A stretch of 64,000 nucleotides of DNA. Origin: Jiangella ureilytica. GTDB lineage: Bacteria; Actinomycetota; Actinomycetes; Jiangellales; Jiangellaceae. Location: positions 1-64,000 of the forward strand of contig NZ_SMKL01000030.1 of NCBI RefSeq assembly GCF_004348545.1, given 5' to 3'. Numbering within the stretch: the stretch's first letter is position 1; each line of letters starts with the position of its first letter. Both the position numbers and the translations under genes were made by a program. Under the pieces are notes generated by a model, which was not told the origin of the DNA, did not search any database, and worked only from the letters and a program-made list of their open reading frames with translations. Shown here piece after piece: positions 4,707 to 57,749 of the stretch.

Positions 4707-5321
4707 CCCCGTCCCCCTGCTGCCCATTCTCTTGAGCCGCGCGGGGTGCCCTCGAGTCCGCGCGCTCTGTGCTTGCGCGCGGCCGGGGTCGTGGGGTTGG
4801 GTGGGTTCCCCCCGTCCCCCTGCTGCCCATTCTCTTAGCCCCGGACGGTCGCCTCAAGCGGACCGGTGGGCGCTGCGCGCCCTGGGGGTCCGCTTGACCC
4901 GCCCGTCCGGGGCCTAATAACGGGCAGCTATCAGGGGGACGGGGCGAGTCTGGCGACGTGCGCGGGGTCGGCGGGCCTTGGTGCGTCCGCGATGTGGGAT
5001 TTGGCGGTGTTCGCGGGGCCATCACGAGGTTCTCTGCCGCTTCACCAGGCCTGCATGCCTGGTGATGTGGCAGAACGCCTGGTGATGTAGCGGATCGCCG
5101 ATGATCATCGCGGTTCGCAGCCCGGCGAACCGGGACGAAACGGGCATGCGGAGGGTGAGGCGTGCCCAGGGTCTCCCCGTCCCCCTGATAGCTGCCCGTT
5201 CTTATGCCCCGGGTGCCCGGGTCAGGCCGAAGCCCCGCAAGCACACGGTCAAGCAACCACAGCGGGCGCCGGCTTGAGGCGGGTGCCCGGGGTTAAGAGA
5301 ATGGGCAGCAGGGGGACGGGG
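4707..5321. repeat. Intergenic composite hairpin element, copy 1
   Basis: Copy 1 spans 4810-5321, with an extra partial left arm at 4707-4737. The outer inverted repeat is 28 nt and perfect (4810-4837 against 5294-5321), containing CTGCTGCCCATTCTCTTA. The inner inverted repeat is 26 nt and perfect (4919-4944 against 5175-5200), containing CTGATAGCTGCCCGTT. The same sequences also form two local hairpins, 4810-4944 (stem GCCCCGGACGG/CCGTCCGGGGC, then CAAGCGGACC/GGTCCGCTTG) and 5175-5321. The core at about 5021-5118 carries the palindrome CGATGATCATCG and two GCCTGGTGATGT direct repeats. No coding sequence is credible here. It lies between convergent genes and fills the 670-base gap. Confidence 0.93.
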
Positions 5322-10049: not shown

Positions 10050-10796
10050 TCACCCAGCGTAGCTGCCGTACCGGGTGCTCAGCAGCCCCCGGCAGAGCCC
10101 GGCATTGCCCTCGATGCTGATCCGCGTCGTGCGGGCCAGCCGCAGCCGCATCGGCAGCGCCTCGGGCGGAATCGGGGCGCCGTCGTCGTCGACCAGCAGC
10201 GGGGCGTCGTCGTCGGCCGGCAGCCCCAGACGAGCCCGGCGGCGACGCAACCTGACGCCGTCGTCGCCCGGCACGTCACCCAGCAGGGCTCGGGCGAGGT
10301 CGACCCCGTCCTGCGCCAGTCCGGACGCGACCCGTTCCTGCTCGGCGGCGTGCGCCTTGCGCCAGAACGTCACCCGCAGCTCCTGCAGCTCACCTTCGGC
10401 GAGGCCCTCGAAGGCCGCGGCGAACCCGTCGCCGGCCGCCACACCACCGTTGATCTCCTCGGCCGCGAAGTGGTCCTCCAATCGCACGTCGACGGCGTCG
10501 ACCCCCGGCACCGCGCGGGCGGCCTCGTAGGCGTCGGCGACCATGAGGTAGGCGAAGTTCGGCGCGCAGAAGTAGGTCGGCAGCCGCAGCCGGATGCGCG
10601 CGGTGCCGTCCTCGACGCGCACCGACGAGACGAAGCCCAGCTCCGTCACCGGCTCGTCCAGCTCCGGGTCGACGACGGCGTCCAGCGCACGCAGGACGGC
10701 CGCCGTCACCGGGCCGGCGGAGGGGCGGCCGCCGGCCCGGGCGGCGTCGGCGCCGGCTGGGGGGCTAGCGGCGCTCGACGCGGTGGAGGCGGTCAC
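10050..10796 (-). CDS. DUF59 (MIP18-like) iron-sulfur assembly-type protein
   Basis: A 248-residue protein starting with a GTG that overlaps the amidohydrolase stop (GTGA). After an Ala/Pro-rich lead of about 30 residues comes a DUF59 domain (VLRALDAVVDPELDEPVTELGFVSSV, LRLPTYFCAPNFAYLM) with a single conserved Cys. A C-terminal extension of about 130 residues follows (VTFWRKAHAAEQERV, GLPADDDAPLLVDDDGAPIP). DUF59 proteins help assemble or repair iron-sulfur or metal centres. Proteins of this type are found beside binuclear-iron propane/acetone monooxygenase genes; no such monooxygenase is in this window. Here the client may instead be the FdhF-like enzyme, which is inference. Confidence 0.8.
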   Translation of the reverse strand: MTASTASSAASPPAGADAARAGGRPSAGPVTAAVLRALDAVVDPELDEPVTELGFVSSVRVEDGTARIRLRLPTYFCAPNFAYLMVADAYEAARAVPGVDAVDVRLEDHFAAEEINGGVAAGDGFAAAFEGLAEGELQELRVTFWRKAHAAEQERVASGLAQDGVDLARALLGDVPGDDGVRLRRRRARLGLPADDDAPLLVDDDGAPIPPEALPMRLRLARTTRISIEGNAGLCRGLLSTRYGSYAG

Positions 10797-11851
10797 GAGG
10801 CCACCGGAGCGGCCGGGCTGAGCGGCTCGGAGCCGATCGCCTCGCCGTCGCCGTCCGTGACGCCGTCGGGCAGCCGCAGGTCGGCCGGCACGTCGATGTC
10901 GTACAGCCGGGCGGCGTTCAGGCCGAGGATCTTCTTCTTGATCTCCGTGGTCAGCGTCCCGTACTCGGACTGCAGGTCCTCGGGGATCTGGAAGTCGACG
11001 AACCGCTCGATCAGCCAGCGCGGCGTCCAGATGGCGTAGTCGCTGGCGAACGTGATGCGGTCGGGGCCGATCCAGTAGAGCAGCTCGCCGAGGACCTGGG
11101 CGAAGTACCGCGGCCGCGAGTGGATGAACGGCATGGCCACCGCCAGCCCGCCGTAGACGTTGGGCTCCTGTGTGGCGATCCAGCAGAAGTCCTCCAGCCG
11201 CGGCAGGCCGACGTGCTCGACGACGAACGTCAGCCCCGGGAACGCCGAGGCGACCTCGTCGACGTCGGCGACGTCGAACGCGTCGCGGTTGAGCGGGTAG
11301 ATGGTCGGGCCCTTGTGCACGTGGATGGTGCGGATGCCCAGCTCCTGACACTTCTCCAGGTACCGGTAGGACCACGGGTCGGACAGCTTCCAGCCCTTCG
11401 AGTCGCCCTTCCACTCGGCGGTGTAGAGCTTCACGCCGCGCAGGTGCCAGCGCTCGGCCAGCTGTTCCAGCCGCTCCAGGCCCGCCTCGCCGTCGCGCGG
11501 GTCCCACGACCCGTTGACGATGAACCGGCCCGGGTGCTTCTCGGCCAGCGCGCCGTCCTGCTCGGTGGTGTTGAAGCCGTTGACGAAGAAGTCGGTGAGG
11601 TAGGTCGGCTGGAAGATCGCCTTGTCGACGTAGCCCACCTCGAACAGGTCGTGCATCACCTGGTCCTCGGACTGGCGCTGGAAGTGCTCCAGCGACCAGA
11701 CCTCGTCCTCGGGACTGAGGTTGCGGTGGTAGTCGTAGAAGCAGTTCAGGAAGCCCTCGCCGTACCGGTTGGCCTGGTTGGCCGGCGTCCCGTCCCAATA
11801 GTGGATGTGGCCGTCCACCACGAAGTAGCTCTGGCCGTCCTTGCTGTACAT
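10793..11851 (-). CDS. Amidohydrolase family 2 protein
   Basis: A 352-residue TIM-barrel amidohydrolase-2 protein with AGAGGAG before the ATG. Visible metal-ligand features are the N-terminal VDGHIHYWDG (H-x-H), IHVHKGP, VVEHVGLP and the C-terminal DRITFASDYAIW aspartate. The family includes decarboxylases and hydrolases, and the substrate is not predictable. It starts 11 bases after the alcohol dehydrogenase stop and overlaps the DUF59 gene. An amidohydrolase/DUF59/ADH trio is known from propane monooxygenase (prm/mim) loci, where the amidohydrolase has no proven reaction. Confidence 0.88.
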   Translation of the reverse strand: MYSKDGQSYFVVDGHIHYWDGTPANQANRYGEGFLNCFYDYHRNLSPEDEVWSLEHFQRQSEDQVMHDLFEVGYVDKAIFQPTYLTDFFVNGFNTTEQDGALAEKHPGRFIVNGSWDPRDGEAGLERLEQLAERWHLRGVKLYTAEWKGDSKGWKLSDPWSYRYLEKCQELGIRTIHVHKGPTIYPLNRDAFDVADVDEVASAFPGLTFVVEHVGLPRLEDFCWIATQEPNVYGGLAVAMPFIHSRPRYFAQVLGELLYWIGPDRITFASDYAIWTPRWLIERFVDFQIPEDLQSEYGTLTTEIKKKILGLNAARLYDIDVPADLRLPDGVTDGDGEAIGSEPLSPAAPVAS

Positions 11852-11862
11852 GCGTGTCTCCT

Positions 11863-12894
11863 CTAAAGGGCCGGGACGAGGATGGCGCGGCCGCCGGGGA
11901 CCAGGCCGTGGTGGAGGTCCGACAGCGCCTGCAGCGCGTCGTCGAACGCGTAGAGCTTCGTGTGCAGCCTGACCTTGCCGCGCGCGGCCAGGACCATCAG
12001 CTCGTCGAGGTCGTTGTACGAGCCGACGAGGTTGCCGATGACGTTGATCTCACTCGAGATCAGGTCGATCGTCGGGACGTCGACGTGGCCGCCGTAGCCG
12101 ATGACGTAGTACGACCCGGCCCGGCGGGTCATCGCCACGCCCTCGGCCTCGGTGCCCTTCTCGCCGACGAAGTCGAACACGACGTGCGCGCCGCCGCCGG
12201 TCAGGTCGATCACCTCGGCCACGTGGCCGCCGCCGGACCGGATCGTGTGGTGGGCGCCCAGGCCGGCGGCGAGCTCGAGAGCCTCGGCCGACAGGTCGAC
12301 GACGGTGACCTCGGCCGCCGTCGTCGCCAGCAGCGTCTGCAGGCCGATGTGGCCGAGCCCGCCCGCGCCGATGACGACGGCGTGCGTGCCCGGATGGAGC
12401 AGCGGCCAGGCCTTCCGGACCGCGTGGTAGGCCGTCAGCCCGGCGTCGGCCAGCGCCGCGACGTCGCGCGGGGCGAGGTTGTCGGCCAGCCTCACGACGG
12501 AGCGGGCGCCGGTGAGCAGCAGCTCGGCCATGCCGCCGTCGGCGTCGATGCCGGGGAACCGCGAGCTCTCGCAGTGCACGTCGTCGCCGCCGCGGCAGGC
12601 CCGGCACAGTCCGCAGGTGACGAGCGGGTGCAGGATGACGCGGTCGCCGGCGGCGACGTTGGTGACCGCGGGCCCGATGTCGACGACCGTGCCGGCGTTC
12701 TCGTGCCCGATCGTGTACGGCAGCGTGACGCCGCTCTTCTGCGCCCACTGGCCCTCGACGATGTGCAGGTCGGTGCGGCAGACGCCGGCCGCGTCGATCC
12801 GGACCAGCACGTCGAGCGGGCCCGAGACCACCGGCTCGGGCACGTCGTCGACGACCGGCTCCTTGCCGTACTCGTGGACGCGGACGGCTCGCAT
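11863..12894 (-). CDS. Zinc-dependent alcohol dehydrogenase, NAD(P)-linked
   Basis: A 343-residue MDR-superfamily alcohol dehydrogenase, started at MRAVRVHEYG behind GGGGAGAGG. The catalytic zinc site is indicated by AAGVCRTDLHIVEG and GHENAGTVVDIG. The structural zinc lobe is ILHPLVTCGLCRACRGGDDVHC (four Cys) and the Rossmann motif is VIGAGGLGHIGLQ. It oxidises an alcohol to an aldehyde or ketone; the substrate is unknown, and in prm-type clusters the homologue acts downstream of alkane hydroxylation. It is the first gene of a five-gene minus-strand operon, and its promoter contains the palindrome at 12970-12990. Confidence 0.93.
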   Translation of the reverse strand: MRAVRVHEYGKEPVVDDVPEPVVSGPLDVLVRIDAAGVCRTDLHIVEGQWAQKSGVTLPYTIGHENAGTVVDIGPAVTNVAAGDRVILHPLVTCGLCRACRGGDDVHCESSRFPGIDADGGMAELLLTGARSVVRLADNLAPRDVAALADAGLTAYHAVRKAWPLLHPGTHAVVIGAGGLGHIGLQTLLATTAAEVTVVDLSAEALELAAGLGAHHTIRSGGGHVAEVIDLTGGGAHVVFDFVGEKGTEAEGVAMTRRAGSYYVIGYGGHVDVPTIDLISSEINVIGNLVGSYNDLDELMVLAARGKVRLHTKLYAFDDALQALSDLHHGLVPGGRAILVPAL

Positions 12895-19359: not shown

Positions 19360-19938
19360 GTGTTCGACATAGGTATCGGCGAGGTGTTCGTGCTACTCGT
19401 CGTGGCCCTGCTCGTCTTCGGCCCCGACCGGCTGCCCGAGATGGCCAAGCAGGCCGCCGGGTTCGTCCGCGACCTGCGCACCATGGTGGCCAACGCCCGC
19501 AAGGACCTCTCCGGCAGTGTCGGCGATCTCGGCATCGACAAAGAGGATCTGAAGACCCTCTCGGACCTGCGCAACCCCAAGTCCTTCGTGCGCTCCAAGG
19601 TGCTCGACGGCATCGACCTCGGCCTCGACGACGACGACGCCGGCTCCAGCCGCACCAACGGCACCAATGGCGTCAACGGCACCCGCCCGTCGACGGCGGC
19701 GAGCACGGGGACCGAGCACGTGGGCGAGGTGGTCGACGTGCCGCCCCCGTCCGCCGACGTCCCGCCTCCGCCGGAGGACGACGTCCCCGACTTCGACAAC
19801 CCGCCGCCTCCCATGGAGGACACCCCCGAGGGCCCGCCCGCCGAGCCGGTCGTCGCATCGGCAGACGACGAGCAGGAGCAGGTGCCGGTGAACGCCGAGG
19901 CCTCCAGGTCGCCGCGGTTCGACCCGGACGCCACCTGA
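19360..19938 (+). CDS. tatB: Sec-independent protein translocase subunit TatB
   Basis: A 192-residue TatB started at GTG. The N-terminal membrane helix MFDIGIGEVFVLLVVALLVF is followed by the conserved hinge GPDRLPEMAKQAAG and the amphipathic helix, then a long acidic and Pro-rich tail (VPPPSADVPPPPEDDVPDFD), typical of actinobacterial TatB. It forms the twin-arginine signal receptor with TatC. The context sigE-anti-sigma-htrA-tatB is conserved in actinobacteria. The gene usually found next, mrp, is displaced here to 34466 by an accessory block. Confidence 0.93.
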   Translation: MFDIGIGEVFVLLVVALLVFGPDRLPEMAKQAAGFVRDLRTMVANARKDLSGSVGDLGIDKEDLKTLSDLRNPKSFVRSKVLDGIDLGLDDDDAGSSRTNGTNGVNGTRPSTAASTGTEHVGEVVDVPPPSADVPPPPEDDVPDFDNPPPPMEDTPEGPPAEPVVASADDEQEQVPVNAEASRSPRFDPDAT

Positions 19939-19955
19939 TCCGGTTGGTGGGGTTC

Positions 19956-20526
19956 CCCCGTCCCCCTGCTGCCCATTCTCTTAGCCGCGGGGACCCGCCT
20001 CAAGTCCGTGCCCTCTGTGGTTGCTTGGCCGTGTGGTTGGGGGCTTGGACTTGACCCGGGTCCCCGCGGTCTAAGAACGGGCAGCTATCAGGGGGACGGG
20101 GGGAGTCTGGCGACGGGCGCGGCGTCATCGGGCCTGTTGGTGTCCACGTGGTGGGATTTGGCGGCGTTGGCGGGGGCATCACGAGGTTCTCTGCCGCTTC
20201 ACGAGGCATGCATGCCTGGTGATGTGGCAGAAGGCCTGGTGATGTAGCGGATCGCCGATGATCATCGCGGTGCACAGCCCGGCGAACCGGGCCAACTGGG
20301 CGAAACGGGCACGCGAAACGGGGGCGCGAACGGGGACGCGAAACGGGGACGCGAAACGGTGAGGCGTGCCCAGTTCCTCCCCGTCCCCCTGATAGCTGCC
20401 CGTTCTTAAGCCCCGGGTGCCCGGGTCAAGCCGAAGCCCCGCAAGCACAGCGGCGAGGTGACCACAGCGGGCGCCGGCTTGAGGCGGGCGGCCGGGGCTA
20501 AGAGAATGGGCAGCAGGGGGACGGGG
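19956..20526. repeat. Intergenic composite hairpin element, copy 2
   Basis: Outer 28-nt inverted repeats are perfect (19956-19983 against 20499-20526), and so are inner 26-nt repeats (20076-20101 against 20379-20404). The left local stem is CCGCGGGGACCC (19985-19996) with GGGTCCCCGCGG (20058-20069), then CAAGTCC with GGACTTG. These differ from copy 1 in sequence but keep full pairing. The core 20179-20277 is identical over 99 nt to copy 3 and holds palindromes GGCATGCATGCC and CGATGATCATCG. A short tandem repeat of GGGGACGCGAAAC units is inserted at about 20312-20360. It begins 18 bases after the tatB stop and accounts for most of the 763-base gap before the GntR gene. Confidence 0.93.
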
Positions 20527-20675
20527 AGCCCACCTCAAACCCCCGCCAACCCCGGTTTCCCGGCGGACGCCCGCACGCTGCCGCTCACCTCGGCGAACGC
20601 CGCGATCGGCCGATCCCGGCTCGCATGACAACACGTGACTGTGGTCCCGCGCGTAGTCAGCCCTATCGACAGAAA

Positions 20676-20698
20676 AGTGATTTAGTGATCTAATCACT
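20676..20698. promoter_or_regulatory. GntR/FadR-type operator overlapping the regulator's start
   Basis: Arms AGTGATT and AATCACT (7 bp perfect, 9-base spacer) end only 3 bases before the ATG at 20702. No Shine-Dalgarno is visible between, so the mRNA may be leaderless, with the operator over the core promoter. The symmetry suggests autorepression by the encoded FadR-type protein. Confidence 0.6.
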
Positions 20699-20701
20699 CC
20701 C

Positions 20702-40774: not shown

Positions 40775-40782
40775 CCCGACTG

Positions 40783-40864
40783 GGAATGATCACAGCACGG
40801 GAACCCGTGTCGCACTACGGCTGCAATCGTGGTGTGGCACGGGATTTCGTGCTGTGATCATTCC
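40783..40864. terminator. Long inverted repeat between convergent genes
   Basis: A perfect 17-bp inverted repeat (40783-40799 against 40848-40864, GGAATGATCACAGCACG and complement) encloses a 48-base loop that itself pairs imperfectly (CCCGTGTCGCAC with GTGTGGCACGGG). It lies 9 bases after one stop and 24 before the convergent ykoC stop. Probably a bidirectional terminator without a T-tract, as is common in high-GC actinobacteria. Confidence 0.7.
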
Positions 40865-40887
40865 GGGGCCGGCGGGCGGGATGGGTG

Positions 40888-43830: not shown

Positions 43831-43889
43831 GGGCTCGAACATGACGCAGCGCGCCACCACGGGACGGATCCCGTGGGACGCGCTGCTGC

Positions 43890-43992
43890 GGTCGAGGTGT
43901 CGACTTCCTGCGCCGGCATTACCCGGATCAGGTTCGAGGGTCTGCGGGCACGTCCCGCACTCTCAGCGCTGCAGCGCTCCCCTGTCGTGGGT
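43890..43992 (-). ncRNA. TPP (THI-element) riboswitch
   Basis: On the minus strand the sequence contains the conserved TPP aptamer segments in order: a G-rich 5' stem, GCGCTGAGAGTGCGGGA (CUGAGA block), ACCCTCGAACCTGATCCGG, GTAATGCCGGCGCAGGAAG and the closing 3' stem CGACACCTCGA. It lies about 95 bases upstream of ykoE and controls the thiamine-precursor transporter genes. A TGTAAT box further upstream may be the promoter -10. Confidence 0.96.
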
Positions 43993-44203
43993 ATTCAGTT
44001 GTCGCGTGAAAGAGATTACACCCGTCTCTCATCACCCGCGATGATCAGCGCGAACGCACCGGCAGGGGCGTCCGGACGGCCATGGCCAGGTCACGTTTCG
44101 GTGACGACCCGGCCGAGGCGTGGGTATGCTCCATCAGGCGCTCCGGCCGGAGCCGCCTCGTGCTCGCCCCCGAGCCGACATCGAACGAAGAGGTCAGCCG
44201 CAC

Positions 44204-48664: not shown

Positions 48665-49178
48665 CCCCGTCCCCCTGCTGCCCATTCTCTTAGCCGCGAA
48701 TCCGCGCCTCAAGCGGACCGGTGGGCGCTGCGCGCCCTGGGGGTCCGCTTGACCCGCCCGTCCGGGGCCTAAGAACGGGCAGCTATCAGGGGGACGGGGG
48801 AGTCTGGCGACGGGCGCGGCGTCCTGGCGGCCTGCTGGCGTCCGCGATGTGGGATTTGGCGCGTTTCGGGGGGCCGTCACGAGGTTCTCTGCCGCTTCAC
48901 GAGGCATGCATGCCTGGTGATGTGGCAGAAGGCCTGGTGATGTAGCGGATCGCCGATGATCATCGCGGTGCACAGTCCGGCGAACCGGGGCGAAACGGGC
49001 ACGCGGGCGGCGAGGCGTGCCCAGGTTCTCCCCGTCCCCCTGATAGCTGCCCGTTCTTGGGCCCCGGGTGCCCGGGTCAAGCCGAAGCCCCGCGAGCACA
49101 GCGGCGGGGTGACCACAGAGGGCGCCGGCTTGAGGCGGGTGCCCGGGGTTAAGAGAATGGGCAGCAAGGGGGACGGGG
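48665..49178. repeat. Intergenic composite hairpin element, copy 3
   Basis: Outer inverted repeat 48665-48692 against 49150-49178 (28 nt with one inserted A on the right). Inner 26-nt inverted repeat 48774-48799 against 49030-49055 is perfect. The core 48877-48975 is identical over 99 nt to copy 2. The left hairpin is mosaic: its 5' stem (GCCGCGAATCCGCG) starts like copy 2 while the loop and 3' stem (CGTCCGGGGCC) match copy 1, so this stem no longer pairs well. It lies between convergent genes and fills, with the partial end at 49258-49298, the 705-base gap. Confidence 0.93.
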
Positions 49179-49257
49179 AGCCCACCTCATCACCCCCGAC
49201 CGACTCGGCGAGGAGCCAACCCGCCCTTGGAGATGATCGGCGGGTGCCCGGAGAGTC

Positions 49258-49298
49258 GAGAGAATGGGCAGCAAGGGCGACGGGGAGCCCACCTCGAA
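49258..49298. repeat. Partial right end of the composite hairpin element
   Basis: GAGAGAATGGGCAGCAAGGG followed by CGACGGGGAGCCCACCTC repeats the right terminus of copy 3, including its extra A, about 90 bases further on. It has no core or left arm, so it is a fragment or a duplicated end. Confidence 0.85.
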
Positions 49299-57617: not shown

Positions 57618-57749
57618 CGTTCCGGGCGGGGCCGCCACGGTTTGGCCGCGGCGGCCCGCACCTGGAATACTGATCTGCTGGCTCCGGTTCACGGTGCGAC
57701 GCCCCGTCGTGCCGACCCGGCGGCCCATGACACGCCAGGAGTACAGAGC

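Follow-up and report, generated by a model that had tools for sequence, protein, structure and literature searches.

A genus-wide family of paired hairpin repeats in Jiangella, with arms related to a hairpin of RepSA-type AICEs

Introduction

The closest described counterparts of the repeats reported here are the REP dimers, BIMEs and REPINs (PMC3733652, PMC3116915), intergenic and multicopy inverted pairs of hairpins, often heterodimers, that are enriched downstream of genes and between convergent genes and that serve as targets for insertion sequences (IS). Single REP units measure 20-40 nt and are tagged by GTAG or CGTC, the CGTC type having no known enzyme (PMC3733652). Bacterial MITEs are likewise short and non-coding, with inverted ends, and are amplified species by species. 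Two further points of comparison come from conjugative elements, namely the RepSA-type AICEs (pSAM2 group), whose RepSA protein is a rolling-circle initiator with HUH motifs (PMC3218068), and the single-strand origins of ICEs, which are orientation-specific stem-loop regions (PMC4595007, ICEBs1 sso1).

Here, we analyzed a window of 64,000 nucleotides (the whole stretch of DNA under study) from Jiangella ureilytica, three repeats of which belong to a family found across the genus. These repeats are intergenic inverted pairs of hairpin repeats and share with REP dimers their multiple copies, frequent heterodimers, location after genes and between convergent genes and role as IS targets, and with the CGTC-type REPs the lack of a known transposase. 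They differ from them by arms of ~130-150 nt, a separate palindromic core, the homology of the arm to an AICE hairpin, the absence of a RAYT from the five genomes searched and their actinobacterial host. The GTAG tag is absent from the arms, and a CGTC lies near the arm end, complementary to a GACG at the other end. Like MITEs, the repeats combine terminal inverted repeats, a lack of coding capacity and multiple copies, but each end is a hairpin, no autonomous IS with such ends was found among the loci read and no constant target duplication was seen in the host's own flanks. Finally, homologues of the arm hairpin occur singly near repSA in a fixed orientation in RepSA-type AICEs, whereas the dispersed Jiangella copies are inverted pairs outside AICEs.

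Results and discussion

Anatomy of the repeat unit

A sequence-only reading of the window had reported three copies of one non-coding unit, and these are borne out letter by letter at 4810-5321 (512 nt), 19956-20526 (571 nt) and 48665-49178 (514 nt). Copies 1 and 2 have perfect 28-nt inverted repeats at their outer ends, the right end of copy 3 has one additional base, and the inner 26-nt repeats are perfect in all three (4919-4944/5175-5200, 20076-20101/20379-20404 and 48774-48799/49030-49055). Of the core motifs proposed in that reading, CGATGATCATCG and two direct repeats of GCCTGGTGATGT, 20 nt apart, were found in every copy, while the GCATGCATGC palindrome is exact in copies 2 and 3 and replaced by CTGCATGCC in copy 1. 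No ORF is common to the copies, as had also been noticed: all three phases are represented among their lengths, and none of the frames stays open throughout. The start at 4707 given earlier corresponds to a half-arm remnant and not to full copy 1. With R1, a covariance model of the arm whose E-values are rough, the window arms score 117-135 bits; a scan of the window returned these six arms only, otherwise weak noise of at most 13 bits. The features are as follows.

4707..4776 (+): half-arm remnant, outer half only, outside copy 1
4810..4944 (+): left hairpin arm, copy 1; R1 134.7 bits; inverted repeat I6
4945..5174 (no strand): core/spacer, copy 1, between the arms
5020..5088 (no strand): central palindromic core module, copy 1, with both GCCTGGTGATGT repeats; related armless modules in other genomes
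5099..5110 (no strand): CGATGATCATCG palindrome, copy 1
5175..5321 (-): right hairpin arm, copy 1; R1 121.4 bits
19956..20101 (+): left hairpin arm, copy 2; R1 130.7 bits
20102..20378 (no strand): core/spacer, copy 2; central palindrome 20177-20244, CGATGATCATCG at 20256
20379..20526 (-): right hairpin arm, copy 2; R1 131.8 bits
48665..48799 (+): left hairpin arm, copy 3; R1 130.2 bits; inner half apparently exchanged with another copy
48800..49029 (no strand): core/spacer, copy 3; central palindrome ~48877-48940, CGATGATCATCG at 48954
49030..49178 (-): right hairpin arm, copy 3; R1 116.7 bits
49239..49292 (-): outer-end remnant outside copy 3

Across Jiangella, the unit is a core flanked by a left and an inverted right arm, both of ~140 nt (about 130-150) and with outer ends that always point outward. 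Paired arms follow each other in + then - order, with spacers mostly of 230-255 nt and of 835 nt at most. In the loci read, roughly every second arm lacks a recognised partner, in part owing to contig ends and insertions. The arm itself folds into an imperfect hairpin whose outer stem (CGTCCCCCTG/CAGGGGGACG) and TCAAG/CTTGA stem are conserved, while the middle stem between them and the tip vary. The stems carry conserved bulges and mismatches, and some asymmetries are near-invariant in dispersed arms, notably an additional CTAT in the inner half and unpaired C residues flanking TCAAG. The core, of ~230-280 nt, is an independent palindromic repeat, related armless palindromes being present in three Jiangella genomes (G003, G006 and, at an orthologous site, G007) as well as in other genera of the family.

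Half-arm remnants were observed outside full copies, both in the window (4707-4776 and 49239-49292) and at loci L018 and L002. They end near the hairpin tip and are sometimes repeated with a ~100-nt spacing, as if copying had halted at the hairpin. At another locus (L157, 2139-3271), the spacer holds a duplicated core and an apparent gene fragment, which suggests capture.

Family size and distribution

A 526-nt query matched 108 pieces in the host genome (G000), where the exact inner-end motif has 29 forward and 30 reverse occurrences (control pattern, 0); the similarity of the three window copies is not due to chance. A pattern search allowing two mismatches in 12 Jiangella genomes (control pattern, 0) yielded 61 (G000), 75, 218, 0 (G003), 13, 32, 3 (G006), 35, 72, 74, 98 and 14 arm ends. 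Many contigs of the G000 draft end within a copy, so that copy counts are minimal, and the element explains many of the contig breaks in this draft genome. R1, searched against 395 genomes of the class, matched 11 of the 12 Jiangella genomes and, outside the genus, only two Kribbella genomes, weakly. Public named records with the inner-end motif are nearly all from Jiangella species, and the phage, plasmid and viral contig collections gave no match to the element. A match in Planctomycetaceae (L060) was rejected as a 20-mer coincidence in which the arm structure is absent.

Rfam gave no match at the window elements, and no description of such a repeat was found in the literature on Jiangella, Kribbella or actinobacterial repeats, in agreement with the earlier remark that no described family fits, although the overall design resembles REP/BIME dimers. 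The three window copies are thus members of an undescribed repeat family of the genus Jiangella. The case of only three local duplications lacking structural conservation, which would have undone the earlier reading, is excluded by the genus-wide family and by the covariation described below.

Turnover, homogenisation and insertions

The three window loci were compared with 11 congeners. Downstream of the gene preceding copy 2, which its tail sequence suggests to be dnaX-like, one species (G002) has a full copy and another (G001) a decayed, single-arm version; several have an unrelated palindrome (GTTGATCATGGAGAA...TTCTCCATGATCAAC) and others nothing, and a similar variety between species was seen at the other two loci. 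Around the copies of the host genome, the flanks show no constant target duplication, and the left and right outer flanks carry different G-rich extensions of ~20 nt. Since intergenic flanks are unalignable between species, neither a target duplication nor a clean empty site is definable. Of 190 arms, 163 have their nearest neighbour in their own species (33 on average after shuffling), with species labels that mix named records and the genomes analysed here, some of them possibly one genome. Apparent exchange of half-arms was seen among the host's own copies, the outer and inner halves of the left arm of copy 3 being of different types by sequence comparison. Together, the clustering and the exchange point to amplification or concerted evolution within genomes.

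Other intergenic structures were noted on the way. Orthologues of window positions 19938-20700 (L189, L193 and L194) contain ~60-nt palindromes with conserved GTTGATCATGGAGAA ends and hypervariable, mostly paired interiors (perfectly paired in L193), and such GTTGATCATGGAGAA-ended palindromes look like a second undescribed repeat family. The window also holds an intergenic palindrome at 40775-40887 (GGAATGATCACAGCACGGG.../...CCCGTGCTGTGATCATTCC-like), of a TGATCA type recurring in other Jiangella gaps, a TPP riboswitch at 43888-43993 (-) and an L31 actinobacterial leader at 57678-57725 (+).

In a complete genome (G009), an IS was found inside eight of the 20 elements read, the first two of which had been picked for their long spacers. 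Pfam assigned the inserted transposases to IS3 (rve), IS256 (Mutator), IS5-like (DUF4096, DDE_Tnp_4) and IS1380-like (DDE_Tnp_1_4) elements. Insertions into arms lie mostly at CTTAG/CTAAG, with apparent duplications of 3 nt (TTA/TAA) or 5 nt (CTTAG) as read from the sequence, which recalls REPs as targets of IS (PMC1525189). At three loci (L212, L217 and L229), several IS families, including IS1380- and IS5-like ones, are stacked in single elements at CTTAG/CTAAG.

The perfect or nearly perfect inverted ends, the dispersed copies and their presence/absence variation are what one would expect of a classical MITE, which arises from a DDE-transposase IS by internal deletion and is mobilised in trans via its terminal inverted repeats. 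However, no autonomous IS with the element's ends was found among the loci read, where all ORF-bearing spacers and arms contain IS3, IS5, IS1380 or IS256 insertions with their own ends; no constant target duplication was seen in the host's own flanks, and the ends are two self-complementary hairpins rather than simple terminal repeats. We therefore regard a classical MITE as improbable. The label "MITE-like" used in the sequence-only reading holds broadly, the copies being dispersed, non-coding, multicopy inverted repeats that vary between orthologous loci, but neither a transposase partner nor a target duplication was found. Two G009 spacers of 1.6-1.7 kb, considered as an autonomous version, each turned out to contain an inserted IS3 element with ends of its own, the two being near-identical. 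Tn3-type ends (TIMEs), suggested by a GGGG...TAAG look, were set aside as unlikely, the polarity being reversed.

Two local hairpins at gene ends

Which of two alternative folds suggested earlier is conserved, side-by-side hairpins or one long-range cruciform, was decided by covariation. Among 62 diverse arms, standard pairs make up 97.3% of paired cells and ten pairs have changed on both sides; the covariation score is 0.209, versus 0.076 for shuffled arms and no more than 0.046 for slid structures. Across 58 complete elements, pairing inside each arm is preserved in 91% of cells at variable pairs, whereas left and right arms agree in 52% versus 62% for random same-species partners, 500 of 500 shuffles being as high or higher. 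The local hairpins are supported, a left-right match below that of shuffled partners leaves the cruciform unsupported as the conserved fold, and the gap between 91% and 52% indicates that selection or some process maintains two local hairpins. The two arms of one copy tend toward different types, so that a perfect long palindrome is avoided. The family is a clear case of covariation deciding between alternative folds.

Mispairs in the stems are about equally G-U (63) and A-C (82; p=0.13), with no sign of one transcribed strand as the target, and maintenance at the DNA level fits better than maintenance at the RNA level. A structured RNA, another earlier suggestion, is therefore not favoured despite the strong covariation of the stems, neither strand being preferred, and selection on RNA only is unsupported by these counts.

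Gene contexts were obtained with a simple codon-usage gene caller. Copies lie between convergent (69), tandem (54) or divergent (13) genes and never inside genes, whereas copy-free gaps of the same loci are convergent in 14, tandem in 83 and divergent in 67 cases (convergent versus divergent enrichment, p=1e-15); the loci having been selected for holding copies, this baseline is only local. Copies between tandem genes lie a median of 54 nt past the upstream stop versus 264 nt ahead of the next start.

This location directly 3' of genes, the strong convergent enrichment and the covarying hairpins would suit bidirectional intrinsic terminators selected by the host for an RNA-level function and multiplied for their usefulness at 3' ends. 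Against this speak the balance of G-U and A-C mispairs, the absence of a U-tract, the orthologous genes of sister species that have no such hairpin or unrelated palindromes, and a long composite architecture conserved beyond the needs of termination. We consider this origin rather unlikely, a terminator function being compatible with the data as a secondary role.

A protein-binding or supercoiling site comparable to the BIMEs of E. coli would account for the conserved bulges and mismatches in the stems, and the layout and location resemble BIMEs as well; however, the distribution is patchy between species (0 to 218 arm ends), which argues against an essential chromosomal role. We regard this reading as very unlikely. 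Least probable by far is a REPIN/REP system mobilised by a RAYT (Y1 tyrosine transposase), which the intergenic inverted hairpin pairs, convergent-gene bias and IS hot spots recall (PMC3733652, PMC1525189) but which is contradicted by arms several times the REP length, the missing GTAG tag and the absence of any Y1_Tnp (PF01797) gene from all five Jiangella genomes searched, three arm-rich ones among them, with positive control genomes, a result that refutes a resident RAYT in those five.

Solitary relatives of the arm near repSA

RepSA genes are carried by all 12 Jiangella genomes, and R1 matched, with 24-53 bits, 15 of 20 stretches upstream of them. Two further RepSA loci of G003 have an arm relative (L243, and a match at 895126 adjoining RepSA at 896940), so that a diverged, solitary relative is present at 17 of 21 Jiangella RepSA loci; the stretches examined at the four others showed no hairpin. 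G003 is devoid of dispersed arms, and each of its four R1 matches across the genome has a RepSA gene within 10 kb. At each of the 17 Jiangella loci, the AICE hairpin scores better on the strand opposite to repSA (two-sided p=1.5e-5), as it does at a Kribbella locus (L241). The sequence-only reading had not noticed this link to AICEs. R1 matches were found in nine of 15 Kribbella genomes, in segments sharing ~200-500 nt, mostly with no further flanking homology. Several of these segments have a tRNA 3' half ~250 nt from the hairpin, and one arm relative lies on an element with RepSA and FtsK/SpoIIIE genes, adjoining a tRNA 3' fragment. At L241, a group II intron with a reverse transcriptase (10355-11916) adjoins the arm-like hairpin of the AICE.

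Dispersed and AICE hairpins have in common CGTC, TCAAG...CTTGAC and GGCAGCTA (A2 alignment). In the AICE form of most Jiangella elements, CTCATAGC and GCTATGAG are paired, while in dispersed arms the bulge arises from bases missing in the outer half. The similarity is modest (24-53 bits with R1), and in the tree, which has a midpoint root only, all sampled dispersed arms form one 100/100 group apart from the AICE and Kribbella forms. The dispersed arm is homologous in sequence and structure to the AICE hairpin near repSA. AICEs may instead have captured a chromosomal hairpin, as the midpoint root does not prove the AICE form ancestral.

The orientation of the AICE hairpin, fixed relative to the replication gene, is consistent with a single-strand origin, of which it is not a proof. 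Given the rolling-circle nature of RepSA (PMC3218068) and the orientation-specific stem-loops of ICE single-strand origins (PMC4595007), the AICE hairpin would most simply be a single-strand origin or a transfer/initiation site, and in all likelihood it acts in cis in replication or transfer. A search by term in PMC3218068 returned no such hairpin. The present analysis supplies RepSA-type AICEs with a conserved hairpin for which no description was found. Its invariant CTTGA may resemble a nick motif of the pC194 type.

Proposed origin and implications

We think it probable that the Jiangella repeats are a genus-wide, non-coding and non-autonomous REPIN- or MITE-like family whose arm is related to a cis-acting AICE hairpin that may be a single-strand origin. 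The dispersed pairs have the appearance of a non-autonomous derivative that resembles REPINs but lacks a RAYT in the genomes searched. The arm would descend from, or have a common ancestor with, the solitary, orientation-fixed hairpin of RepSA-type rolling-circle AICEs, and would have been turned into a dispersed pair in the Jiangella lineage outside G003 and G006. Pairs would then have multiplied inside each genome, with exchange between copies keeping them homogeneous. They may persist directly after gene ends because a strong hairpin is harmless or useful there, perhaps as a bidirectional transcription barrier, and they serve as a landing pad for IS elements. The amplification route may have been RepSA or other rolling-circle machinery acting in trans.

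A bolder and only tentative proposal is that Jiangella chromosomes carry dozens of paired origin hairpins of rolling-circle ICEs, spread and renewed in trans by the RepSA (HUH) protein of resident AICEs. If so, the system would be a rolling-circle counterpart of REPIN/RAYT, and AICEs could act on chromosomal segments between such sites. Where the intergenic palindromic repeats of bacteria come from has long been asked outside the RAYT systems. The large family described here has an identifiable relative on a class of mobile elements whose HUH initiator is known, which makes its source, enzyme and function directly testable.
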